NCBI GenBank assembly: GCA_016195805.1
Contig: JACPYT010000004.1
Coordinates: 1 to 64,000, forward strand
Direction: 5' to 3'
DNA: 64,000 bases
Source of the DNA: Hydrogenophilales bacterium
Lineage (GTDB): Bacteria; Pseudomonadota; Gammaproteobacteria; Burkholderiales; Thiobacillaceae
Shown: in pieces, positions 26,060 through 38,447 of the stretch
Numbering within the stretch: the stretch's first letter is position 1
Layout: every line of letters begins with the position of its first letter
The notes under the pieces: generated by a model
Told to the model about the DNA's origin: nothing
Databases searched by the model: none
Seen by the model: only the letters and a program-made list of their open reading frames with translations
Translations under genes and position numbers: made by a program

Positions 26060-26938
26060 TCATAGCGCAGCGCCCAGGCTCCAGTCCAGGATGCGCCAGC
26101 GCCGTTCGTTGCTGCCTTCGACGGCGATCTGGTAACCCAGGCGCTGGATGGCGCCGGGGCGGGTGAGGAACGTCTCTTCGCGGAACGGCAGGGTGGAATG
26201 TTCGATCCGCCAGGGATTTGGACCCTTGCGGTAGCCGAAGCTGATTTCGACGTCCAGCCAGTCGAGCAGCTGCGAACGGGCGGGCTGCGTCCAGGCGACG
26301 AGATGGGACAGGTCGGTGGTCGCGGGCAGCGGTTGGGCGCGGCCCCGCACGTAGATGAAGCAGTCGCCGGCGACGAGCAGCCAAGTGGGGCGGGCGGGCG
26401 GTTCGCCGGCCGCCACCGCGAGTTCGAGCGCGGCGGTGCCGCCGCGGCTGGGCGGCAGGCGTTCCCAGATTTCGAGGTAGTCGGCTTCGATGCCAGTTTC
26501 GGTCACGCGCTCGCCGTCGAAGGCCATGCGGCCGATGTCGCGGCTGCCGTTGGCGGGCTGGAAATCCATCTGGCGATGCCAGGTGCAGCGGTCGCCGTCG
26601 ACCTGGGTGACGCCGCAAAACCCCTGCTGGCGCGCCAGCCAGGCCAGCTGGGCGTCGTCGCATTCGGCCAGGCAGCCGACGCCGGAGAAATCGGGCCGCC
26701 CGGCGGGAATTCGCAGGTCGGCGTGCCAGTGCGGGGTCTGCAGCCAGAAGACGTGGCTGCGTTCGTCGCGTTGCCCGGCGGTTTCCAGCAGGCTGCGACG
26801 CCACACGCCGAGATAGGTGCTGGGCACCGGTGCGGGCGACACGGCCGTATCCGGGGAACCGGCAAAGGGTGCGAGGCGCTGCCGGGACAGATCGCGCAAG
26901 GCGTCGGCAAGGGTCGATCCGGTGCGGCACAGGGTCAT
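26060..26938 (-). CDS. Conserved-looking soluble protein of unknown function
   Basis: I cannot assign a family with confidence. The 292 residues are soluble and beta-rich, with many aromatic residues (YLGVWRR, VFWLQTPHWHADLRIP, DYLEIWERL). These suggest a lipocalin-like or duplicated beta-barrel fold. The N-terminal 50 residues are helical. The start ATG at 26938 overlaps the stop of the GGDEF-EAL gene by four bases, so it is translationally coupled and is the last gene of the riboswitch-headed operon. There is no signal peptide. Confidence 0.65.
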   Translation of the reverse strand: MTLCRTGSTLADALRDLSRQRLAPFAGSPDTAVSPAPVPSTYLGVWRRSLLETAGQRDERSHVFWLQTPHWHADLRIPAGRPDFSGVGCLAECDDAQLAWLARQQGFCGVTQVDGDRCTWHRQMDFQPANGSRDIGRMAFDGERVTETGIEADYLEIWERLPPSRGGTAALELAVAAGEPPARPTWLLVAGDCFIYVRGRAQPLPATTDLSHLVAWTQPARSQLLDWLDVEISFGYRKGPNPWRIEHSTLPFREETFLTRPGAIQRLGYQIAVEGSNERRWRILDWSLGAAL

Positions 26939-29088
26939 TCGGCGCGTCCTGATTGGGGGGCGCCGGCGTTGCGCAGCAGGACTTCCATTTCGAGCGCGGG
27001 TACGGGCCGGCTGAAGTAGTAGCCCTGCAGCTCGTCGCAGCCATGCTGGCGCAGGAATTCGAGGTGCGCGCGGGTTTCCACGCCTTCGGCCACCACTTTC
27101 AGGCCGAGCGCGTGGCCTAGGGTGATGATGGCGCGCACGATGGCGGCGTCGTCGGGATCGCTGTCGATGTCGCGCACGAAGCTCTTGTCGACCTTGAGGC
27201 GGTCGACGGGAAAGCGTTTGAGATAGCTCAGGCTGGAATAACCGGTGCCGAAGTCGTCCACTGCAATGTCGACGCCCAGCGCCTTCAGCGACTGCATGGC
27301 GACGTTGATGCGCTCGGCGTCGTGCATGACGAGGGATTCGGTCAGCTCCAGCTCCAGATACGCCGGGTCGAGTTCGGCCAGGGCCAGCGCGGCCGCCACC
27401 GCGTCGACCAGTCCGTCCTGGCGAAACTGGATCGGTGAGAGATTGACCGAGACGCCGATGGGCGGCAGGCCGGCACGCTGCCAGGCGCTGGCCTGGCGGC
27501 AAGCTTCCTGCAGGACCCATTGCCCGATCGGTATGATCAGTCCGCTTTCCTCGGCGATCGAAATGAAGCTGTCCGGCGGGATCAGGCCCTTGCCCGGGCA
27601 GTCCCAGCGGATCAGCGCCTCGGCACTGACGATGCGCCCGCTGGCAACCTCGATGCGCGGCTGGTAGTAGACGTGGAACTCGTTGCGATCGAGCGCATGG
27701 CGCAGGCTGTTTTCCAGCTCGAGCCGCTCGCTGATCGCCCGGTTGAGCTCGCGCGTGTAGAAGTGATAGGTGCCGCGGCCGGATGCCTTGGCCTGGTACA
27801 TGGCGGCATCGGCGCTGCGCAGCAGCGCGTCGGGGTCGGCGCCGTCCTGCGGGTAGCAGCTGATGCCGATGCTGCAACTCAGTCCGTATTCCTGGCCATG
27901 GTGCATCCATGGCTGCGAAATGGATTCCAGCAGGCGACTGACGATGGCGATGATTTCATGGTCGTCGTCCTGCTCGGTAAGCACGATGACGAATTCGTCG
28001 CCGCCCTGGCGCGCCACGCAGTCGTGGCTGCGAATGCAGGACGAGAGCCGTGCCGCAATTTCCAGCAGCAGGCAGTCGCCGACGTGATGGCCGAGGCTGT
28101 CGTTGATCAATTTGAAGTGATCGAGGTCGACGAACACCACCGCCACCAGCTTGCCATCGCGTTGCGCCTTGGCGATGGCCTGGTCGATGCGGTCGCGCAG
28201 CAGCGACCGGTTGGGCAGCCCGGTCAGGCTGTCGTGGCTGGCCTGGTGTTCGAGCTCGGCCTCGTACTGCTTGCGCTCGGTGATGTCGACTACGGTGCCC
28301 TCGAAGAATTGCACGCTGCCGTCGGCATTTTTCACCGCACGCGCATTCTCGGAAATCCAGATGATGCTGCCGTCGTGCCGGTAGACCTGCGACTCGAAGT
28401 TGCGCACCACCCCCTGCGCCTGCATCAGATGCACGAATTCCGCGCGCCGTCCCGGAGACACATAGAGCTGGCGCGTGATGTCCCGCAGATGGATGATCAG
28501 CGCATCCGGCGAGGCATGGCCGTAGATGCGCGCGAGGGCCGGATTGGCATTGAGATAGCGGCCTTCCGGCGTGGTCTGGAAGATGCCTTCGGTGGCGTTC
28601 TCGAAAATGCTGCTGTAGCGGCGAACGGCCTCACGCAGTGCCTCGTTGGTGGCCATGCGCTCGGCGATGTCCTGGATGAAGCCCTCGATCCAGGCCAGCT
28701 GGCCGTACGCATCGCGCAGACCGACGCCGCGCTCCAGCACCCAGCGGATACGGCCGTCGGCACGACGGATGCGGTATTCCACGTCGAAGGATTCGTTGGC
28801 TTCGAGCGCGGCGCGGATCGTGCGGCTGACATGTTCGCGGTCCTCGGGCAGGGTCATCTGGTCGTACGACACGCGGTTGTTGAAGACCAGTTCGTCGGGG
28901 CGGTAGCCAGTGAGCTTGTGGCAGCCCTCGCCGACGAATTCCATGGTCCAGATCGCATCGATGCGGCAGCGGTAGATCATGCCGACCAGGTTGTCGGTGA
29001 TGGTGGTCAGGAGGCGCGTAACGTCGAGCGGCGCGGCGGTGTCCGTCACGTCCGGTTCTGCAAGATGGGCGTGGTGCGGGCTATTCAT
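26935..29088 (-). CDS. PAS-GGDEF-EAL cyclic-di-GMP enzyme
   Basis: This 717-residue cytoplasmic enzyme has two PAS/PAC domains (about 20-145 and 150-275), GGDEF (about 280-450, motif at 362) and EAL (about 465-705, EAL at 490). An RxxD inhibitory site (RSHD) lies five residues before GGDEF. The EAL domain keeps DDFGTGYSSL and AEGVET, so both synthesis and hydrolysis of cyclic di-GMP are possible. The start ATG 29088 overlaps the end of the lactonase-like gene by eight bases and the stop overlaps the following gene. This tight packing implies one operon with the hydrolase. Confidence 0.93.
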   Translation of the reverse strand: MNSPHHAHLAEPDVTDTAAPLDVTRLLTTITDNLVGMIYRCRIDAIWTMEFVGEGCHKLTGYRPDELVFNNRVSYDQMTLPEDREHVSRTIRAALEANESFDVEYRIRRADGRIRWVLERGVGLRDAYGQLAWIEGFIQDIAERMATNEALREAVRRYSSIFENATEGIFQTTPEGRYLNANPALARIYGHASPDALIIHLRDITRQLYVSPGRRAEFVHLMQAQGVVRNFESQVYRHDGSIIWISENARAVKNADGSVQFFEGTVVDITERKQYEAELEHQASHDSLTGLPNRSLLRDRIDQAIAKAQRDGKLVAVVFVDLDHFKLINDSLGHHVGDCLLLEIAARLSSCIRSHDCVARQGGDEFVIVLTEQDDDHEIIAIVSRLLESISQPWMHHGQEYGLSCSIGISCYPQDGADPDALLRSADAAMYQAKASGRGTYHFYTRELNRAISERLELENSLRHALDRNEFHVYYQPRIEVASGRIVSAEALIRWDCPGKGLIPPDSFISIAEESGLIIPIGQWVLQEACRQASAWQRAGLPPIGVSVNLSPIQFRQDGLVDAVAAALALAELDPAYLELELTESLVMHDAERINVAMQSLKALGVDIAVDDFGTGYSSLSYLKRFPVDRLKVDKSFVRDIDSDPDDAAIVRAIITLGHALGLKVVAEGVETRAHLEFLRQHGCDELQGYYFSRPVPALEMEVLLRNAGAPQSGRAE

Positions 29089-29863
29089 GGCATTCCGGGA
29101 AGCGCCGCAGCGTGCGCCAGAAGGCAAGATCGTGGTTGGGCCACAACTCGGCGCGTTCCTGCCGTGCCAGGGATTTGAGCTTGCGGATGCTCGCCAGCGC
29201 CTGGTCCTCGCGGTCCTGCCAGCACAGGCCGGGGGCGATTTCCTGCTCGAGGTTTTCCGCGAGGTCGGCGGCGTCGCCGCACAGGATGAGCGGCGGTCCC
29301 TTCGGCAGTTCGACGAACAGCGACATGTGGCCGGCAGTATGGCCAGGCGTGGCGACGGCGCGCACGCCGGGGAGCAGATCGTATTCGCCCTGCTGCACCG
29401 TCCAGTTTTCGATGCCGGAAAAATCGTCGTCGAACACCGCGATGTCGCGGCCGGAGCGCGCGGCATCGAGCTCGTCCCGCTGCACGTGAACCTCGGCGCC
29501 GCAGACGTCGCAGAGCCCGCCGGCATGGTCGAAATGCAGGTGGCCGACGAACACCACGTCGACGTCGGCAGCGGTCAGCCCCAGGCGCTCCAGGTGATGC
29601 GGGATGCGGTCTTCCTCGCGCATCTCGGGCGGGCCGAAGGGGAAGGTCTCGGGGTCGTAGTAGCGGCGGCGTAGTGTCGGGTCGACGATCTTGGCGTAGT
29701 CGCAGCCGACGTCGTAGAGGATGCGTCCGTTCTTCGTCTCGATCAGGTAGGCGAGGATGGGCGCCTCGATGATCTCGCCGTGGCCGCGGTTGCGCGTCGA
29801 CAGCGATTTGTCGTATTTGTGGAGGCCGGTGAGCAGCGGCCGCATGCGCAATACCTGGGTCAT
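29081..29863 (-). CDS. Metallo-beta-lactamase-fold hydrolase, AHL-lactonase-like
   Basis: This 260-residue protein has the zinc motif HLHFDH at 108-113, a later His in TPGHTAGH (173-179) and the bridging Asp in CGDAAD (Asp198). This is a full dinuclear zinc site. The opening APILAYLIETKNGRILYDVGCD and the length match the AttM/AiiA group of N-acyl-homoserine lactonases better than glyoxalase II or RNase Z. It may open lactone rings of quorum signals or of a metabolic lactone. AGGAAGG precedes the ATG at 29863. First certain gene after the riboswitch; no luxI or luxR lies in the window. Confidence 0.88.
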   Translation of the reverse strand: MTQVLRMRPLLTGLHKYDKSLSTRNRGHGEIIEAPILAYLIETKNGRILYDVGCDYAKIVDPTLRRRYYDPETFPFGPPEMREEDRIPHHLERLGLTAADVDVVFVGHLHFDHAGGLCDVCGAEVHVQRDELDAARSGRDIAVFDDDFSGIENWTVQQGEYDLLPGVRAVATPGHTAGHMSLFVELPKGPPLILCGDAADLAENLEQEIAPGLCWQDREDQALASIRKLKSLARQERAELWPNHDLAFWRTLRRFPECHE

Positions 29864-29882
29864 GGTGTCGCCTTCCTGGATG

Positions 29883-30080
29883 TCAGGCTCGTCGTGCCGC
29901 GGTCAGGACGGACATTGGCATCGCACCGACAACGTCGTCGGCCAGCACGCGCTTCACCCGCTGACGACGGATGGGCAGCGGCAACCTGAGCCGGGCGCAG
30001 CGCAGGCTGGCGGGACGGAGATAGAGGTGGGCCCGCCCGCAGGCCTTGTCGTGTACACGAAGCGGACGGTTCATAAGCAT
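29883..30080 (-). CDS. Possible 65-residue basic protein just after the riboswitch
   Basis: This open frame begins 34 bases after the riboswitch hairpin and ends 19 bases before the hydrolase start, so it would be the first gene of the operon. Third codon positions are strongly GC-rich like true local genes, and a weak GGAA site lies before the ATG. The product is very Arg-rich (about 15 of 65) and resembles nothing I know. It could equally be untranslated leader. Confidence 0.35.
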   Translation of the reverse strand: MLMNRPLRVHDKACGRAHLYLRPASLRCARLRLPLPIRRQRVKRVLADDVVGAMPMSVLTAARRA

Positions 30081-30110
30081 GGTGAATTCCGTGGAGATTG
30101 CAGGTGTATA

Positions 30111-30232
30111 AGTCCCGGGAGCGCGACCCTCGCGTCTCCCGGGCTTTTGTCCCTCCGTGGAGCCCCGCCTGACGGCGGGACCGGCGGCTCTCGGACCAGC
30201 ATCCCCCGCGGGACCGGAACCCTAGCCCTCCT
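30111..30232 (-). promoter_or_regulatory. ykkC-class riboswitch, guanidine-I type
   Basis: The minus strand reads, in order, the highly conserved elements of the guanidine-I aptamer. These are CTAGGGTTCCG at 30225-30215, CTGGTCCGAGAG at 30199-30188, a GC-rich P2-type hairpin (CCCGCC-GTCA-GGCGGG) at about 30182-30167, CACGGAGGGA at 30159-30150, and AAAAGCCCGGGAGA at 30148-30135. The last element enters a very strong hairpin (30143-30114, arms CCCGGGAG and CTCCCGGG) that probably forms the switching part. The family binds guanidinium; close variants bind ppGpp or PRPP, but the AAAAGCCCGGGAGA end is as in guanidine-I. It would control the lactonase/GGDEF-EAL operon downstream. Confidence 0.9.
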
Positions 30233-30576
30233 TCGCGGTACGTGCAGGCGATAACGCGCCGCTTTTCCCGTTGAACTTCTCAAAGCAACCGCTGTGCCAG
30301 CCGTCGCGCGTGGCGGCGAATACCCGACAAGTGCCCGCCGTTTCTGGACACGGCCTGGCGTGGCCTGCATGGTCGGGGGGTGGCGTCGCCGGGGCGTGAC
30401 CGGAATTGGTGCGGCCGTCGCCCGCGTGCGCACCAAAGCGGGGGCTGGCGGGCGCCCTGACCGGTTGGATCTGCTGGAATCTGCCGGCCTGTGCGGTCGC
30501 GGCGTCCAAGAAGCCAAAAACAGACTAAAGTATTCAAATGCAGGCGGGGAAGATCACTTTTTCATAAAGGGAGATT
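30233..30576. other. Divergent spacer upstream of the riboswitch and of the FapF-like gene
   Basis: No gene is supported in these 344 bases. It must hold the promoter of the riboswitch transcript (minus strand) and that of the FapF-like gene (plus strand), but no clear -35/-10 pair or sigma-54 site was found in it. An AAAGGGAG ribosome binding site ends it at about 30567-30574. Confidence 0.5.
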
Positions 30577-31908
30577 ATGTCCAGTGCTTTCATCGATACC
30601 GTGAAGTCATGCCGGATGTGGGCTGCGCCCCGAGTGCTGGCGGCTTTCCTGGCGAAGGCCGGCTTGATTGCTGCCACCCTCGCTCTCCCCGCACCGGCTG
30701 CCGTGGCTGCCGAAGCGCCCCCCGACCCGGGAGAGCTGGCAACGATCAAGCAGCAGCTGGCGGACGAAGCCCGGGCGCTGGCGGCGCAGCAGCGTCAACT
30801 GGCGGAGGACATGAAAAAGCTGGAAGCCCACAAGCGGGCACTGCAGGACAGCCAGCGCCGCCTGAGCCTGCTGCAAAAACAGCTGGGCATGGCGCCGAAC
30901 GAACCGCGGGCGGACGACACCGACCTTCTCGTGTCGGGCGGGCAGGGCGGCGGCAGCGCCCCGGAGAGCCCCCCGGTCGACGTCGGCACGCTGTTCGCGC
31001 AGCCCACCATCCTCACCCCCAAGGGGGCGGTGGTGTTCGAGCCCTCGCTGCAGTATTCCTTCAGCAACTCGGACCGCGTCTCGATCGTCGGCTACAGTAT
31101 TCTGCCCGCGCTGGTGATCGGCCTCATCGACGTGCGCACGGTCAGCCGCAGCACCTGGATCGCCGCGGCCGACGTGCGCTACGGCCTGACCAGCCGGCTG
31201 GAACTCGAGGCCAAGCTTCCCTATGTCTATCGCTACGACGACACGCTCAGTCGTCCGCTCGACCTGAATGGCGGCGCTACTGACCAGTTGTTCAACGCCA
31301 GCGGCAACGGGATCGGCGATATCGAACTGGCTGCGCGCTACCAGCTGAATCTGCCCAAGGGGGACGATCCCTTCTATATTGCCGGCCTGCGCCTGAAAAC
31401 CCGCACCGGCAAGGATCCGTTCGATGTGAGCTATGCGACCGGCTCGACGCTCACCACCTATGGCTCGGTGCAGACGGAACTGCCGACCGGCTCGGGTTTC
31501 TACACCCTGCAGCCCAGCCTGAGTGTGGTCCTGCCGGCCGATCCGGCGGTGTTTTTCGGCGGCATCAGTTACCTGTGGAACATCAAGCGCGATATCAACA
31601 AGAATGTCGGTGGCGTCCAGATTGGACAGGTGGACCCGGGCGACGGCGTCGACATCAACCTGGGCATGGGTCTGGCGCTCAACGAAAGGAGCTCGTTCAG
31701 TGTAGGCTACGAGCACACTTGGCTCGGCAAAAGCACGCTGAACGGCGTCACCCCGCCCACCGAGCTGTCGACGCAATTGGCCAGCCTGCTGGTGGGCTAC
31801 TCCTATCGGCTGAACAAGACCACCAACCTCAACCTGTCGATTGGCGCCGGGCTGACCAACGACACGCCGGATACGCAGATCACCCTGCGCGTGCCGATCC
31901 GCTTCTAG
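30577..31908 (+). CDS. FapF-like outer-membrane amyloid export channel
   Basis: This 443-residue protein has a long signal peptide (to about 44), then a predicted coiled coil (about 52-106, QLADEARALAAQQRQLAEDM), a Gly-rich linker, and a beta-barrel from about 128 to the final Phe (VPIRF). This layout and length match FapF, the trimeric barrel with N-terminal coiled coil that exports Fap amyloid subunits in Pseudomonas. Automated tools often name such barrels phenol-degradation MetA-like. It faces the other fap-like genes convergently instead of ending their operon. A terminator follows. Confidence 0.82.
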   Translation: MSSAFIDTVKSCRMWAAPRVLAAFLAKAGLIAATLALPAPAAVAAEAPPDPGELATIKQQLADEARALAAQQRQLAEDMKKLEAHKRALQDSQRRLSLLQKQLGMAPNEPRADDTDLLVSGGQGGGSAPESPPVDVGTLFAQPTILTPKGAVVFEPSLQYSFSNSDRVSIVGYSILPALVIGLIDVRTVSRSTWIAAADVRYGLTSRLELEAKLPYVYRYDDTLSRPLDLNGGATDQLFNASGNGIGDIELAARYQLNLPKGDDPFYIAGLRLKTRTGKDPFDVSYATGSTLTTYGSVQTELPTGSGFYTLQPSLSVVLPADPAVFFGGISYLWNIKRDINKNVGGVQIGQVDPGDGVDINLGMGLALNERSSFSVGYEHTWLGKSTLNGVTPPTELSTQLASLLVGYSYRLNKTTNLNLSIGAGLTNDTPDTQITLRVPIRF

Positions 31909-31935
31909 GTCGCCATTATCGGCAGCAAATCCGTC

Positions 31936-31960
31936 AAGCCAGGCTTTGCCTGGCTTTTTT
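31936..31960 (+). terminator. Rho-independent terminator after the FapF-like gene
   Basis: Hairpin AAGCCAGGC-TTT-GCCTGGCTT followed by a run of T, 27 bases after the stop codon. The run lies on the plus strand, so it ends the FapF-like transcript. Confidence 0.85.
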
Positions 31961-31966
31961 CCGGAC

Positions 31967-32557
31967 TCAGCGCAGGCCTGCGGCGCTCATCTGGTTGAGC
32001 GCCGCACCGAGGCGCATGGCGGCTGCAGCCTGCTGGATCGACAAGGTGGCGTTCATTACCGTGAGGTTGCGGATGACCTGGTTGTTCACCGTGTTCTGGA
32101 TCACGGTGTTCAGGGCTGCCAGCGATTGTGGCAGGGTGAAGGTATTGCCGGTGCCGTTCTGGACTAAGGTGAGCACGCCCTGGTTGTTGAGCACCTGGGT
32201 GGTCACCGTGGTGGGAGACGTGCTGCTTTGCGCGATCTGCGGCGGCGGGCTGGTGTCAGCCGGCGGGGGAGCGCTGGCCACCGCGCTCGCCGGTGTCGGG
32301 GCCATGGGGCCGAACTGCAGCGGGGTGAGCTTCATGGAGGACACCAGCTCGCCATTGACGTAGGTGAGCTGCTCCAGCGAAAAGGCCAGCGTCAGCTGCA
32401 TGCCGTTGATGTTGAATTCGAATCCCCCACGCATGGCGTCGAGGTCGGCGTCGCTGGCGGCGGCGTAGTCCTCGAAGCCCGGCAACGCGGCGTGTGCCGT
32501 GCTGCCGGCGAACAGGGCTGCCGCCGCCAGCAAGCGGGGAGCGAAATGTGTGTTCAT
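31967..32557 (-). CDS. FapE-like small secreted protein with double-glycine motif
   Basis: This 196-residue secreted protein has a signal peptide (to about residue 23, TAHA), then SDADLDAMRGG (GG at 44-45). The motif resembles the leader end cut by C39 peptidases. A Pro/Ser/Thr linker follows, then a C-terminal part rich in Asn, Gln and Val (TLVQNGTGN, TVIQNTVNNQVIRNLTV). The place beside the C39 gene, the size and the C-terminal style suggest FapE or another minor amyloid subunit. It is the last gene of the minus-strand operon, nine bases after the peptidase gene. Homology to FapE is by pattern, not by search. Confidence 0.7.
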   Translation of the reverse strand: MNTHFAPRLLAAAALFAGSTAHAALPGFEDYAAASDADLDAMRGGFEFNINGMQLTLAFSLEQLTYVNGELVSSMKLTPLQFGPMAPTPASAVASAPPPADTSPPPQIAQSSTSPTTVTTQVLNNQGVLTLVQNGTGNTFTLPQSLAALNTVIQNTVNNQVIRNLTVMNATLSIQQAAAAMRLGAALNQMSAAGLR

Positions 32558-32566
32558 GGTGATCTC

Positions 32567-33247
32567 TCAATAGTCGCCGACCTGCCTGCGCAGCAGGGTC
32601 GCGTTGGCGAGACCGTCGGGGCCGTTAGCCAGGCCCAGCGGCGCTTTTTCCTTCACCCGCCAGTCCTGGGGTTGGTTGAATACGGCCTTCTGGTCGAGGC
32701 CGTTGATGACGAAGAGGATCTTGCTCGCCATCATTTTCTCGAATTGCGGCATTGAATAGATTCTTCCGCCCAGCGAGGGGTCGCCGACGGCGACCAGGCC
32801 GTCACGGATGCCCTTGACGACGACGAAATGGTTGTAGCCGTTTTCGCGGATCAGCACGATGGCCGGGATGCCCACGCTCGCCAGCCGGCTGAGCGGGGCG
32901 GCATAGCCATCGGCGGAATAGCCGCGGCTTTGCAGGAAATGCTTGAGGTCGAGCAGCGAGAAGCCTTCGCGGCGGATCTTCTGGTGATCACCGTTATCCC
33001 ACATGGCCTTGAAGATGGTCGGCTCGTCGACCGGGTCGCCGTAATGATAGGTCAGCAGGGTCGAGAGCGCGGCGGAGCCGCAGCTGAAGTCCAGCTCCTG
33101 GCGAACGGTCTGGCGGAATTGGCGTTCCTTGAGACTCTTGACCTTGACGTTGAAAATGCCGCCGTCCACGCCTTGCACGGGAACCGACCCGGCCCACGCC
33201 GGTGGTGCGAGCAGCAGGGCGAACGCAAGCACGAGCAGAGCGCGCAT
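32567..33247 (-). CDS. FapD-like C39 cysteine peptidase
   Basis: This 226-residue secreted protein (signal peptide to about residue 19) is a lone C39 peptidase domain. The oxyanion Gln (Q50) and nucleophile Cys56 lie in QELDFSCGSAALSTLL, the His is H140 in NHFVVV, and the Asp D156 in GDPSLG. FapD of the Pseudomonas Fap system has this domain and length. Unlike C39 domains of bacteriocin exporters it is not fused to an ABC transporter and would act in the periplasm. Start is one base after the stop of the upstream gene. I infer that it trims the two neighbouring proteins after their GG motif. Confidence 0.88.
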   Translation of the reverse strand: MRALLVLAFALLLAPPAWAGSVPVQGVDGGIFNVKVKSLKERQFRQTVRQELDFSCGSAALSTLLTYHYGDPVDEPTIFKAMWDNGDHQKIRREGFSLLDLKHFLQSRGYSADGYAAPLSRLASVGIPAIVLIRENGYNHFVVVKGIRDGLVAVGDPSLGGRIYSMPQFEKMMASKILFVINGLDQKAVFNQPQDWRVKEKAPLGLANGPDGLANATLLRRQVGDY

Positions 33248-33248
33248 C

Positions 33249-33596
33249 TCACTGCACCTGCAGATTGAGTATCGTGGCGTTCTGGATCAGCACGTTGTTG
33301 CCGGAATTCTGGATCACTGTGGAAAATCCGGAATTGCCAGTCAGCGCGCCATCGGTGACGTAGTTGCTTCCCGTCACGCTGTCGAGGGCGGTGTTGTTGT
33401 AGACCGAGGCGTTGAGGTCGTTGAGGTTGGAGATGGTGGTCGTCCCGCCGCGGTGAGCTGCCAGTTCGGAATCGGGCACGGCCTCAGCGAAGCCGGCAGG
33501 GGCCAGGCTTTTTTGCGCGGCTGCCGGATCGCCCCGTGCCGCCGTCGCAGCCAGGAATGGGGCTGTGGCCAGCAATAGCAGGATTGCGTGTTTCAT
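33249..33596 (-). CDS. Small secreted Fap-like protein with double-glycine motif
   Basis: This 115-residue protein has a signal peptide (to about 20), then PDSELAAHRGG with GG at 50-51. This follows the xSxxELxxxxGG pattern of peptides cut by C39 proteases. The C-terminus GFSTVIQNSGNNVLIQ resembles amyloid repeat units. The start ATG 33596 has GGAAGG nine bases ahead; an ATG three codons earlier would lie on that site. Position and size suggest the FapA or FapB slot. Between the fibre candidate and the C39 peptidase. Confidence 0.7.
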   Translation of the reverse strand: MKHAILLLLATAPFLAATAARGDPAAAQKSLAPAGFAEAVPDSELAAHRGGTTTISNLNDLNASVYNNTALDSVTGSNYVTDGALTGNSGFSTVIQNSGNNVLIQNATILNLQVQ

Positions 33597-33654
33597 GATT
33601 GCCATCCTTCCAGGAAACACCCCGGGGCCGCTGGGCGGTCCCGGGGCATACGGG

Positions 33655-35562
33655 TCAATGCACCGACAGGTTGGCTTGTACGGTCACGCCAATCTGGGTC
33701 AGCGCATTGGCGCCGGTGTTTTGCGACACGGAGATGATGCCGGCGCCATTGGTCAGGCTGCTGCCGATGGTGTTGGAGGCATCGTAGGAGCCGGCGTTGC
33801 CGCCGGCCGAACTTCCACCGTTGCCGCCAATGCCGCCATTGCCCGTGGTGGCCGAAGCCATCGCGCTGCTGGTGGCGCTGCCGCCCATGCCACCGCTGCC
33901 GCCGGGGCCGTTGGCGGTCGCCGTGCCACCGGTGCCGCCTGCGCCACCGGTGCCACCTGTGCCACCGGTCGCGCCGGCACCTGCGACGCCACCTGCACCG
34001 GCACCGCCGGTGCCGGTGGCACCGGCCGCGCCTGCGCCGCCGGTGCTGGTTCCGGCTGCACCCACCGCGCCTGCGCCACCCGCGCCGCCGGTTCCGGTTG
34101 CGCCCACTGCGCCTGCGCCACCCATGCTGGTTCCAGCTGCGCCAGTACCCGCCGCGCCGGTTCCGGTCGCACCTGTTGCGCCATTACCGGCGGTGTTGGT
34201 TCCTGCCGCACCGGTGCCCGCTGCGCCGGTACCGGTTGCGCCTGCGGCATCCGAGCCGCCTGCGCCACCCATGCCGGCAGCTGCCGTGCTGGTGCCGGTA
34301 GACGTGCTTGCGCCGCCGCTGCCTGCCCCTGCCGTATCGGTGCTACTGGTACCGCCACCCGTGGAGCCGCCGCCATTAGCGCTGCCGGTTGTGGCGGTGG
34401 TGGGCCCAGTGGAGCCACTCGCGCCCCCTGTCCCGCCGCCGACTGCTGGTGCTCCTGCTCCACCTGAGGGTCCACCAGTGCCAGTGTTCCCACCAACAGT
34501 GGGACTACCGCCATTGCCACTGGCAGATCCACCGGTATTGCCATTTGCAGTCGAGACAGGCACCCCCGCGCTGACTGCGACAGGAACGCCGCCGTTGGCG
34601 CTGGAGGCGCCGCCACTGCTGCTGCTGCCGCTGTCGCCGCCGATGCCCTTGCCGCCGGCACTGCCCGACAAGGCGGCACTGTCGCCGCCGATGCCCTTGC
34701 CGCCGCTCGCGCCATTGCCGCCGGAGCCGCCTGCACCGAAGCCGCCGACGCCGAGGCCGCCAAGTGCATTGCCATTGCTGCCGCCGGAACCGCCGGAACC
34801 GCCGGAACCCTTGCCGCCGATTCCAAAGCCGCCGAGGGCATCGCCGGAACTGCCGCCGGAACCGCCGGAACCGCCGTAGCCCTTGCCGCCGTTGCCGCCG
34901 TTGCCGCCGGAACCGCCCGTGGCGTTGCCGCTGTTGCCGCCGGAACCGCCGGAGCCGCCATAGCCCTTGCCGCCGATGCCGCCTATGGCACCGCCGCCAT
35001 TGCCGCCGTCGCCGCCATTGCCGGCGTTGCCTGCGGTGGTGTCGCCGCCGATGGCCTTGGCGTAACCGCTGCCGCCGTCACCGCCGTTGGCGCCGTAGGA
35101 CTTGCTGTGGGAATCCTGCGAGGCATTGCCCCCGTTGCCGCCCATGCCGCCATCGCCGGCCTGGCCGCCGCCGTAGGCGGTGTTGCCGCTGGGGAACACG
35201 ACGTTGTCGTGGACTTCGCCGTTCAGCGTGGTGGTTGCCGTGGCATTCACCGTGGCGTTGAAGGAATCGTGATTCTGCGACTGGGCGTTGAAGGAGTCGC
35301 TGTTATTGGAGGAGGTCATCGGGTTGTTCGAGTCCGAGGTATTCACGCTGTTGTCGGTGCTCGTGTTGGTCTGGGTGGCCGTCGAATTTTCGTTGGCGGC
35401 CGCACCGGAAAGCTTTTCCTGTGTGGAGGTGGCCGTCGCGGCCTGGTTGACCGTGCCGTCCTGAGAGGTCGGCGAACTGTTGGTGTTGGTGGGGTTGGCC
35501 CAGGCGTGGCTTCCCATCCCCAGGGCCATGGCGATCGCTGTCGCCAAGAGTGTCTTGTTCAT
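33655..35562 (-). CDS. Large Gly-rich secreted protein, candidate amyloid fibre subunit
   Basis: This 635-residue protein has a signal peptide (cleavage near AWA-N, residue 22). An Asn/Ser/Thr-rich stretch (to about 125, including two SFNA motifs) precedes about 450 residues of Gly-rich repeats. The first half of these is GGxGG with charged spacers (GGNGG, GYGGSGGSGG). The second half is Gly-Ala-Thr (GTGGAGGAGAVG). The last 27 residues (IISVSQNTGANALTQIG and following) share the QN-S/T-G-x-N-x-L-x-Q pattern of the two small neighbours and of curli repeats. I infer it is the main secreted fibre or matrix subunit in the FapC position. AAGGAG precedes ATG 35562. Confidence 0.75.
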   Translation of the reverse strand: MNKTLLATAIAMALGMGSHAWANPTNTNSSPTSQDGTVNQAATATSTQEKLSGAAANENSTATQTNTSTDNSVNTSDSNNPMTSSNNSDSFNAQSQNHDSFNATVNATATTTLNGEVHDNVVFPSGNTAYGGGQAGDGGMGGNGGNASQDSHSKSYGANGGDGGSGYAKAIGGDTTAGNAGNGGDGGNGGGAIGGIGGKGYGGSGGSGGNSGNATGGSGGNGGNGGKGYGGSGGSGGSSGDALGGFGIGGKGSGGSGGSGGSNGNALGGLGVGGFGAGGSGGNGASGGKGIGGDSAALSGSAGGKGIGGDSGSSSSGGASSANGGVPVAVSAGVPVSTANGNTGGSASGNGGSPTVGGNTGTGGPSGGAGAPAVGGGTGGASGSTGPTTATTGSANGGGSTGGGTSSTDTAGAGSGGASTSTGTSTAAAGMGGAGGSDAAGATGTGAAGTGAAGTNTAGNGATGATGTGAAGTGAAGTSMGGAGAVGATGTGGAGGAGAVGAAGTSTGGAGAAGATGTGGAGAGGVAGAGATGGTGGTGGAGGTGGTATANGPGGSGGMGGSATSSAMASATTGNGGIGGNGGSSAGGNAGSYDASNTIGSSLTNGAGIISVSQNTGANALTQIGVTVQANLSVH

Positions 35563-35636
35563 CTTCTTGCTCCTTAAGCTGGTGTTGATACAGACATCAT
35601 CCTGAGCCGTTGAACCCGGGCTCGATGTCTTCATCA

Positions 35637-35651
35637 GCACCTTCCGTGCCA
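35637..35651 (-). promoter_or_regulatory. Sigma-54 (RpoN) promoter before the fibre gene
   Basis: The minus strand carries TGGCACGGAAGGTGC. The -24 element TGGCAC is perfect, the -12 element keeps GC (GTGC against TTGC), and GG and GC are exactly ten bases apart as the family requires. It lies 75 bases before the fibre-gene start, leaving a leader of about 60 bases. A sigma-54 activator gene is encoded divergently 440 bases away. Confidence 0.72.
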
Positions 35652-36088
35652 TCTTCTCAAGCCATTGATAGTTAATTGAAATCTTTTGTGCATCGAACTC
35701 TCCGGCAAGGCGAGCTCGCGAGAAGGTGCATCAAATCCGAGACGGGCGCACAGCCATTTTTCGCCGGTGGCGCATTTTGCGTTGTTGAATCAATCGCTTG
35801 GTTGGATTTGTGGCGACAAGGTCGGAGTGTTCGATTTTTGCGACAGATCCGGGCGCCTGTGGCCCGGCGAGTGTGGCAGCCCCGGGCGGTTCGGCCGCAG
35901 TGACCGGGGCGCGATGCAAAAGACGTGCAAGCTCGAAAAACTTTTCTATAGTGATGCATTGCTTCTACAGCAGTTGTAGTCCAACCGGGTGACAGTGGAC
36001 GGGTGCCGCGCGGCCTCGCTGGCATTGTGGCATCCCGGCGTAGACGGGTGTGCTTTCGCGTCATGGCCGGATGTGATCAGGAGGGGTG
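35652..36088. other. Regulatory spacer between fibre gene and sigma-54 activator gene
   Basis: No gene is supported in these 437 bases, and GC is lower than around it. It lies upstream of the sigma-54 promoter, where enhancer sites for the activator are expected. Candidate sites are the short inverted repeat CTACA-GCAGT-TGTAG at 35965-35979 and GCGACA phrases at about 35812 and 35838. None is proven. Confidence 0.45.
35965..35979. repeat. Inverted repeat, possible activator site
   Basis: CTACAGCAGTTGTAG has five-base perfect arms around a five-base centre. It is about 315 bases upstream of the sigma-54 promoter and 110 bases before the activator gene, a plausible enhancer position. Confidence 0.3.
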
Positions 36089-37571: not shown

Positions 37572-38447
37572 ATGCACTTCACCCCCGACTCCTTCCGCGC
37601 CTGGCCGAGCAAGCGGATCACCCTGCTTGGCATGTCCGGCGTCGGCAAGACGCACATCTCCTCCATGCTGCGCGGCCACGACTGGTTCCATTTTTCCGGC
37701 GACTATCGCATCGGCACGCGCTACCTCGACGAACCCATCCTCGATCTGATCAAGCAGCAGGCGATGAGCGTGCCCTTCCTGCGCGAACTGCTGCGCAACG
37801 ACTGGATCGACATCAAGAACAACATCAAGATCCACGACCTCGGGCCGGTGCTGACATTTGTCGGCAAGCTTGGCGGGCCCGAGTGGGGCGGGCTCCCGCT
37901 CGACGAATTTTCGCGCCGTCAGGCCGCCTACCGCGATGCCGAGATCGCCGCCATGCGCGACGTGCCGGCCTTCATCCGCAAGGGCCAGGAAATCTACGGC
38001 TACCCGCACTTCGTCAACGACGTCGGCGGCAGCCTGTGCGAGCTGGACGAACCCGGCGTGGTTGAACTGCTGGCTGAGCATACGCTGATCCTCTACATCC
38101 AGACCACCACGCGCGAGGAGGAGGACACGCTGATCAAGCGTGCGCAGTCCGACCCCAAGCCGCTGTATTTCCGCCCGGCCTTTCTCGCCGAGCATTTGCC
38201 GGTTTATCTGCAGGAAAAAGGTCTCGAGTTCGTCGCCCAGGTTGACCCGAACGACTTCGCGCGCTGGGTGTTCCCGCGTCTGTTTCATTCGCGCATCCCG
38301 CGTTACGAGGCGATCGCCAGGCCGCACGGCTACACCGTGACCTCGCAGGAAGTGGCGCAGGTGCGCGACGAGCGCGATTTCCTTGCGCTGCTGGAAATCG
38401 CCATCGCCCGGAAAGGCGAGGCGTCAGGCGTGAGGCGTGAGGCGTAG
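37572..38447 (+). CDS. P-loop NTPase-like protein paired with metA
   Basis: This 291-residue soluble protein has a clear Walker A motif GMSGVGKT (20-27) near the N-terminus. A kinase or GTPase-like first strand precedes it (KRITLL). No classical Walker B or GTPase NKxD is evident; FVNDVGGSLCELD could supply acidic residues. I do not recognise its function. It ends two bases before metA and so is probably co-transcribed with it. The last nine residues come from a short tandem repeat (38418-38446) and may be a recent extension. No good ribosome binding site was seen before the ATG. Confidence 0.7.
   Translation: MHFTPDSFRAWPSKRITLLGMSGVGKTHISSMLRGHDWFHFSGDYRIGTRYLDEPILDLIKQQAMSVPFLRELLRNDWIDIKNNIKIHDLGPVLTFVGKLGGPEWGGLPLDEFSRRQAAYRDAEIAAMRDVPAFIRKGQEIYGYPHFVNDVGGSLCELDEPGVVELLAEHTLILYIQTTTREEEDTLIKRAQSDPKPLYFRPAFLAEHLPVYLQEKGLEFVAQVDPNDFARWVFPRLFHSRIPRYEAIARPHGYTVTSQEVAQVRDERDFLALLEIAIARKGEASGVRREA
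38418..38446 (+). repeat. Short tandem repeat at a gene junction
   Basis: Four imperfect copies of GAGGCGT (CAG or TGAG variants) run to the stop codon of the P-loop gene and up to the metA start. The array is of the sort that grows or shrinks by slippage. Confidence 0.6.

Follow-up and report, generated by a model that had tools for sequence, protein, structure and literature searches.

The 64,000-nucleotide (nt) stretch analysed here (the window: positions 1 to 64,000 of the forward strand of contig JACPYT010000004.1, Hydrogenophilales bacterium, assembly GCA_016195805.1) carries on its minus strand a guanidine-I riboswitch aptamer followed by genes for a metallo-beta-lactamase (MBL)-fold hydrolase, a PAS-PAS-GGDEF-EAL protein and a protein resembling HRI1 (table 1). 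We refer to these genes as MBL, EAL and the HRI1-like gene, to the window genome as G000, to other genomes of the same family by further G numbers and to gene loci by L numbers. An initial annotation of the sequence had placed such an aptamer ahead of an acyl-homoserine lactone (AHL)-lactonase-like hydrolase and a cyclic di-GMP (c-di-GMP) enzyme, and its gene order (MBL-fold hydrolase at 29863-29081, PAS-GGDEF-EAL, third protein) agrees with the reading frames and with Pfam. The EAL start codon overlaps the MBL stop (CATGAATAG), as it does in relatives, and the start of the HRI1-like gene overlaps the EAL stop (ATGA); these overlapping reading frames suggest translational coupling.

Table 1. 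Features of the riboswitch locus and its upstream neighbours, in window coordinates.
Feature	Position	Strand	Basis
Sigma-54 (-24/-12) promoter-like site, TGGCACAGCGGTTGCT	30284..30299	minus	1 of 2 strict matches in the window
Guanidine-I (ykkC subtype 1) riboswitch aptamer	30134..30236	minus	RF00442, 78.5 bits, full model
Predicted expression-platform hairpin, CCCGGGAG strand shared with aptamer helix P3	30110..30146	minus	Folding
Deletion scar: start codon of lost SBP2 (30080), then collinear DES gene fragments	29864..30080	minus	Comparison with relatives
MBL-fold metallo-hydrolase, 260 aa, member of the ancestral riboswitch operon	29081..29863	minus	PF00753
PAS-PAS-GGDEF-EAL protein	26935..29088	minus	Pfam GGDEF, EAL, PAS
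HRI1-like (calycin-type) protein	26060..26938	minus	AlphaFold2 model and PDB structure match
FapF-like	30577-31908		Best profile, below cut-off
FapD-like C39 peptidase	32567-33247		Best profile, below cut-off
Gly/Ser/Ala-rich open reading frame	33655-35652		

A cmscan of the 64-kb window matched Guanidine-I (RF00442) over the whole model (1-107 of 107) on 30236-30134 of the minus strand, at 78.5 bits against a gathering threshold of 63. The E value of 2.7e-12 rules out a chance motif as the source of the match. This covariance-model check had been proposed in the initial annotation, and every conserved block quoted there is present. The aptamer is the sole Rfam match over threshold in the window, a permissive scan of 29800-30600 returned only Guanidine-I and a sub-threshold lncRNA match, and no second guanidine-I aptamer was found in G000. 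We compared it with 22 other guanidine-I aptamers from the same taxonomic family, the window copy itself not being among them; these are all the other family aptamers except two decayed copies (G081 and G064), and some of them head guanidine carboxylase operons. The window aptamer keeps 53 of the 53 columns invariant among these references, together with 15 of 15 nearly invariant ones; the decayed copies retain 48 (G081) and 37 (G064) of the 53. A marker position that separates ykkC subtypes is an A in guanidine-I and a pyrimidine in the ppGpp and PRPP types (PMC6031431). It probably lies in the stretch CCGAGAG, and the GAGAG of the window aptamer is without a pyrimidine. By model score and conserved columns, the window RNA is confirmed as a genuine guanidine-I riboswitch and a plain member of its class.

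The first base of the sigma-54-like site lies 63 nt upstream of the aptamer. Sigma-54 promoters have a -24/-12 consensus of the TGGCAC-N5-TTGC type, and a scan of the whole window on both strands gave two strict matches, TGGCACAGCGGTTGCT being one of them. No sigma-70-like site was found in 29800-30600, and RpoN is encoded in the genome. The pairing recurs among relatives, a sigma-54-like element being found near 21 of the 25 family aptamers and starting 25-64 nt upstream (50-64 nt in 20 of the 21). In the wider loci described below (L085-L164), scanned with a slightly looser pattern, such an element stood within 150 nt upstream of 40 of 57 aptamers compared with 8 of 1140 random 150-mers; one further aptamer, of 58, had too little upstream sequence. 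Some of these 40 aptamers head guanidine carboxylase operons, so control by nitrogen status may be general for proteobacterial guanidine-I switches. On the other side of the aptamer, folding predicts an expression-platform hairpin (30146-30110) in which the 3' strand of aptamer helix P3 serves as the 5' arm. The 62-nt stretch folded gave -27.2 kcal/mol with a z-score of -3.59, and the hairpin is predicted likewise in four relatives (z-scores from -2.47 to -5.62).

The spacer between aptamer and MBL is best understood by comparison with relatives. Guanidine-I matches at an E value of 0.001 or better are present in 18 of 100 family genomes (17 over the cut-off), and MBL in nine, all of them among the 18; the MBL of G081 is truncated. 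The order aptamer, ABC substrate-binding protein gene (SBP2), membrane desaturase/hydroxylase-like gene (DES), EamA transporter gene, biuret-hydrolase-like amidase gene (IHL) and MBL is found on one contig in G025, G089, G032 and G029, G093 and G042 have the same operon genes over two contigs with some cut by contig ends, and the G087 operon is without IHL. EAL follows MBL in same-genus genomes, and then the HRI1-like gene where the contig continues; in G032 the HRI1-like gene comes directly after MBL. In the window, SBP2, DES, EamA and IHL are all missing between aptamer and MBL. Aptamer and leader are 91% identical to those of G025 (149/164) as far as the SBP2 ATG, and the roughly 210 nt after that start hold three ordered DES fragments (30051-29975, 29988-29934 and 29950-29882) before MBL begins. 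The best fragment scores 64.4 bits against a maximum of 33.7 among 2000 random window segments (0/2000), while a control on the summed weak hits was poor, the chain score being reached by 2/300 random segments and 0/300 shuffles. The 65-codon open reading frame at 30080-29882 is a DES remnant; considered as a small multidrug resistance (SMR) exporter, it gave no Pfam or NCBIfam match and is part of the scar.

Genome searches of G000 gave the same picture: IHL is absent at 1e-40, no DES was found at 1e-5 (a search lacking a positive control, though the same query finds DES in relatives), and no SBP2 orthologue was found, the match obtained being an SBP paralogue at 32%. The EAL tree, built from 18 proteins, joins G000 to G093 with support of 100/99, which places the gene loss later than their split. 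The relatives' full operon and the DES shreds in the spacer make gene loss the best supported of the options raised in the initial annotation, and the comparison largely supports the window operon as a deletion derivative that lost its first four genes and kept the riboswitch. The riboswitch had been suggested to be orphaned by such loss. The loss itself stands, as G093 has the missing genes and DES left a scar; the orphaning does not, because MBL and the HRI1-like gene are, judged by the relatives, original members of the guanidine operon and not new targets.

HxHxDH, H175, D197, H244 and D200 are invariant in 29 aligned MBL members, the window's included. The best named profile for MBL is that of AiiA (NCBIfam), at 143.2 bits far under its cut-off of 375, and the closest solved structures are AHL lactonases. 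Asp200, an Asp in 29/29 aligned members, aligns with the lactonase active-site tyrosine, Tyr194 of AiiA. That tyrosine (Tyr194/Tyr223) is kept in all known metallo-beta-lactamase-like lactonases except AidC (PMC6062542). Because the gene order is conserved and an invariant Asp stands where AHL lactonases have Tyr, we favour a hydrolase acting on a guanidine-related compound, an option already raised in the initial annotation, and infer a cationic, guanidino-type substrate. The low AiiA score, Asp200 in place of Tyr and the different gene partners leave the AHL-lactonase label unsupported.

The AlphaFold2 model of the HRI1-like protein (mean pLDDT 90) found its best PDB match in yeast YLR301w (3rby; E 3.1e-08, TM 0.50/0.58, rmsd 5.8), the HRI1 protein, a name in line with PF16815. 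The PF16815 profile did not match the window protein, and its L126 homologue reached 21.7 bits against a cut-off of 27; as modelled, the HRI1-like fold gives no function for the third gene. Of the lost proteins, DES is an FA_desaturase-type membrane protein with three histidine motifs (HEFAH, HMRHH and HNAHH), for which no solved structural relative was found at 0.001. IHL is closest to biuret hydrolase 6xjm and keeps the Cys in TTEVCV, scoring 265 bits with the BiuH profile, below the cut-off of 370. Guanylurea hydrolases are members of the IHL superfamily (PMC9800807).

A scan of named genomes gave 205 MBL relatives, of which the best 80 were kept, so that close relatives are over-represented in this wider sample. 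Of the 80 loci, 63 hold an aptamer or a guanidine-pathway gene. Guanidine-I aptamers occur anywhere in 49 and within 9 kb upstream on the same strand in 40, and guanidine carboxylase, CgdAB or allophanate hydrolase in 33. Of the module genes, DES is present in 63 loci, EamA in 55, IHL in 44, the HRI1-like gene in 51 and an SBP-like gene in 54 (distant SBP paralogues counted in), and EAL lies within 2.5 kb of MBL in seven. DES is on the strand of MBL in 63 loci and on the opposite strand in one. Where the sequence extends 6.5 kb or more upstream of MBL (58 loci), 37 loci have the aptamer upstream and 50 have DES. The module recurs in Beta- and Gammaproteobacteria, and MBL hosts include Thiobacillus, Acidithiobacillus, Sideroxydans, Methylophilaceae, Pseudomonas, Paraburkholderia, Polaromonas and Noviherbaspirillum.

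Its composition varies. The Pseudomonas kuykendallii operon (L126) adds two short-chain dehydrogenases, a creatininase-family protein and an ABC permease. Creatininase-family genes (PF02633) were seen inside guanidine-I operons at L034:8245-9015 and L126:8611-9378, one of the two in a carboxylase operon and one in a DES/MBL module. Three Methylophilaceae loci (L106, L108 and L110) have DES-MBL-EamA without IHL; their aptamer is found downstream, ahead of the HRI1-like and SBP genes. Were methylguanidine the substrate, methylotrophs could use the formaldehyde. At L121 and L123 the module includes an additional DES copy (about 50% identity) and an additional SBP gene. At the Nodosilinea (cyanobacterial) and Nitrosospira MBL loci no guanidine riboswitch was found over threshold and no guanidine-pathway gene among the open reading frames examined, so MBL may also work outside the module.

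Elsewhere in G000, contig C6 encodes a guanidine carboxylase (93% to that of G025), CgdA, CgdB and allophanate hydrolase. A guanidine-II switch immediately precedes the carboxylase gene, and a sigma-54-like site (TGGCACGGGGGTTGCT) stands ahead of the SBP gene of the operon; no guanidine-I aptamer was found there. The initial annotation had noted neither this operon nor the sigma-54-like site and the scar at the window locus; its remark that no importer is present is true of the locus, from which the importer gene has been deleted. With the carboxylase pathway in place guanidine is probably still metabolized, and it is reasonable that guanidine should signal to the window operon. As a side observation, four such carboxylase operons were scanned, and in two of them (G000 and G081) a guanidine-II switch stands directly before the carboxylase, at L065:9715-9758 and L075:8144-8191, with no guanidine-I found there. 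Immediately upstream of the window aptamer lies a Fap-like amyloid cluster (30577-35652; table 1). In G025, G081, G087 and G089 the neighbour is instead gene family c6, whose window copy is at 37572-38447, which suggests that the amyloid genes entered between it and the aptamer.

We consider it likely that a working guanidine-I riboswitch heads what is left of a larger operon for nitrogen scavenging. When nitrogen is limiting, transcription by sigma-54 RNA polymerase would begin some 35-40 nt upstream of the aptamer. With no guanidine present, the CCCGGGAG strand would pair with the downstream CUCCCGGG, and the strong hairpin would stop or attenuate transcription; with guanidine bound, the CCCGGGAG strand would be held in P3 and transcription would continue into MBL, the PAS-GGDEF-EAL gene and the HRI1-like gene. 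In the complete operons of relatives, SBP2, a di-iron DES, EamA, IHL and MBL would most likely import, oxidize and hydrolyse a substituted guanidine and release guanidine for the carboxylase pathway, making guanidine both product and inducer. In the window lineage the first four genes would have been deleted, and the promoter, switch, MBL, c-di-GMP enzyme and HRI1-like protein kept. Aptamer, gene order, scar and conservation were observed directly, and from this anatomy we infer sigma-54 use, ligand, regulation and enzyme substrates. As aptamer, hairpin, MBL and EAL are without clear decay, guanidine and nitrogen limitation probably still control MBL, the c-di-GMP enzyme and the HRI1-like protein. 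Pairwise ratios of nonsynonymous to synonymous substitution (dN/dS) are 0.115-0.312 for MBL in pairs with G000 and 0.098-0.243 in other pairs, and 0.154-0.196 for EAL with G000; by this measure both genes are under purifying selection, without clear relaxation.

Several observations weigh against a working switch at the head of a guanidine operon. The platform hairpin is without a U-run and a simple scan calls no intrinsic terminator; control may accordingly be leaky, and switching off may depend on Rho or act on translation. The highest MBL dN/dS of all pairs (0.312) involves G000. Neither an aptamer nor a guanidine-pathway gene was found in 17 of the 80 MBL loci; many of these are short contigs, but L131, L140, L146, L157, L159 and L160 span about 20 kb. 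Given the MBL stub of G081 and the aptamer wrecks of G064, G067 and G079, the window copy could also be a snapshot on the way to loss.

This last point leads to the possibility, which we regard as unlikely, of a decaying relic in which selection acts on no more than the sigma-54 promoter and the EAL/HRI1-like tail, the switch and MBL being left over and guanidine control incidental. It draws on repeated pruning in relatives. A damaged aptamer (65.6 bits) abuts MBL residue 177 in G081. G064, G067 and G079 each have a wrecked aptamer and the SBP2 start joined to the final MBL codons, G088 has a longer SBP2 piece at that MBL-tail junction, and the sigma-54-like site of G056 lies 130 nt from EAL. 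C-terminal tails of MBL stand before EAL in five genomes without a whole MBL (G081, G064, G079, G017 and G088). Relatives that lost aptamer and MBL nevertheless keep a sigma-54-like site before EAL, such a site lying within 700 nt upstream of 9/17 EAL genes. Taken together, the junctions and the EAL tree point to three or more separate losses, one in G000, one in the G064/G067/G079 clade and one in G081/G056; the tree supports the G081/G056 grouping at only 92/95 and 85/64, with six of 15 inner branches open and the place of G088 unsettled. What these deletions leave in each case is promoter plus EAL, which suggests selection for EAL and its promoter. The initial annotation had asked whether homologous operons keep the switch: all nine family genomes with MBL have a guanidine-I match, and the copies in G081, G064, G067 and G079 are damaged or wrecked. 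Against the relic reading, the G000 aptamer has all 53 invariant columns, the platform hairpin is kept, and MBL is full length with its metal ligands present and dN/dS well below 1.

We think it improbable that the locus is an AHL quorum-quenching operon in which guanidine sets biofilm state through a lactonase and c-di-GMP. AiiA is the best named MBL profile, the closest structures are AHL lactonases, a GGDEF-EAL gene follows and a Fap-like amyloid cluster is next door, but the AiiA score is far under 375 and Asp200 occupies the tyrosine position in 29/29 members. The frequent neighbours of MBL are DES, EamA, IHL and guanidine genes, EAL being near in 7/80 loci, and the FapF match appears only in window-derived loci. 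Guanidine control of c-di-GMP is possible as a by-product, because EAL overlaps the MBL stop in Thiobacillus-type operons, and to this extent the earlier proposal that guanidine or a variant ligand controls signalling survives; its variant-ligand half is not supported. An aptamer for ppGpp, PRPP, a nucleoside diphosphate or another ligand is very improbable, for although the downstream genes are unusual and ykkC subtypes with other ligands exist (PMC6031431, PMC5912903 and PMC7266159), the 53/53 columns are common to family aptamers, some heading carboxylase operons, and the downstream genes in relatives are guanidine-linked.

Beyond the preferred reading of the locus as the tail of a guanidine operon, we propose, tentatively and with slightly less than even confidence, a widespread and apparently undescribed pathway of Beta- and Gammaproteobacteria that would make guanidine from substituted guanidines and would require two signals at once, nitrogen limitation through sigma-54 and guanidine through guanidine-I. 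Its core would be DES, as a membrane di-iron oxygenase, and MBL, with the Asp that replaces the lactonase Tyr binding guanidinium, and a biuret-hydrolase-like amidase, short-chain dehydrogenases or a creatininase would be added in some species; Thiobacillus-type operons would also drive a c-di-GMP enzyme, and the window switch would have been re-dedicated to MBL, the c-di-GMP enzyme and the HRI1-like protein. PMC12186494 treats the source of guanidine in nature as an open question, and a conserved operon with oxygenase, amidase and metallo-hydrolase names concrete candidates for guanidine release from larger compounds. Through the recurring sigma-54-like site, guanidine switches would become one input of an AND gate whose other input is nitrogen status, and the repeated pruning in one genus, with promoter and c-di-GMP enzyme kept, would be a natural series for riboswitch retargeting via gene loss.

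The genes named under guanidine switches in the consulted parts of PMC12186494 and PMC7266159 are carboxylases, Gdx/SugE exporters, ABC importers, guanidinase and others, not this set, and 'lactamase' is absent from both as seen. Our literature search did not find the operon content or the sigma-54 pairing described, although the founding guanidine-I paper may tabulate the gene associations; both are apparently undescribed, while the riboswitch class was already known. Like other members of that class, the window element has the full aptamer and the conserved core, and its predicted hairpin would compete with the aptamer as in a transcriptional ON switch. It differs in having no carboxylase, Gdx/SugE exporter or ABC importer directly downstream, in its sigma-54-like site and in the lack of a U-run. 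With AiiA-type AHL lactonases and 4-pyridoxolactonase the window MBL has in common the MBL fold, the HLHFDH motif and the other metal ligands; unlike AiiA, it has Asp200 for the active-site Tyr, scores far below the family cut-offs and keeps other gene partners. Biuret and guanylurea hydrolases (PMC9800807) are the counterpart of IHL, which is nearest 6xjm and keeps the Cys, yet falls below the BiuH cut-off and is lost from the window. A further known system is the V. boliviensis carboxylase operon with guanidine-I and guanidine-II (PMC12508155). The riboswitch class is the same and G000 has the carboxylase pathway with guanidine-II, although on another contig, and the window operon is without the V. 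boliviensis enzymes. Guanidine-I is specific for guanidine in that system and guanidine-II non-discriminating, and two extra genes under guanidine switches, MgdH and MgdL, demethylate methylguanidine (PMC12508155); these two are the closest precedent. This logic, from substituted guanidine to guanidine, is our working model for the SBP2-DES-EamA-IHL-MBL module, in which an FA_desaturase-type protein and an MBL hydrolase would stand in place of MgdH, a 2-oxoglutarate dioxygenase.

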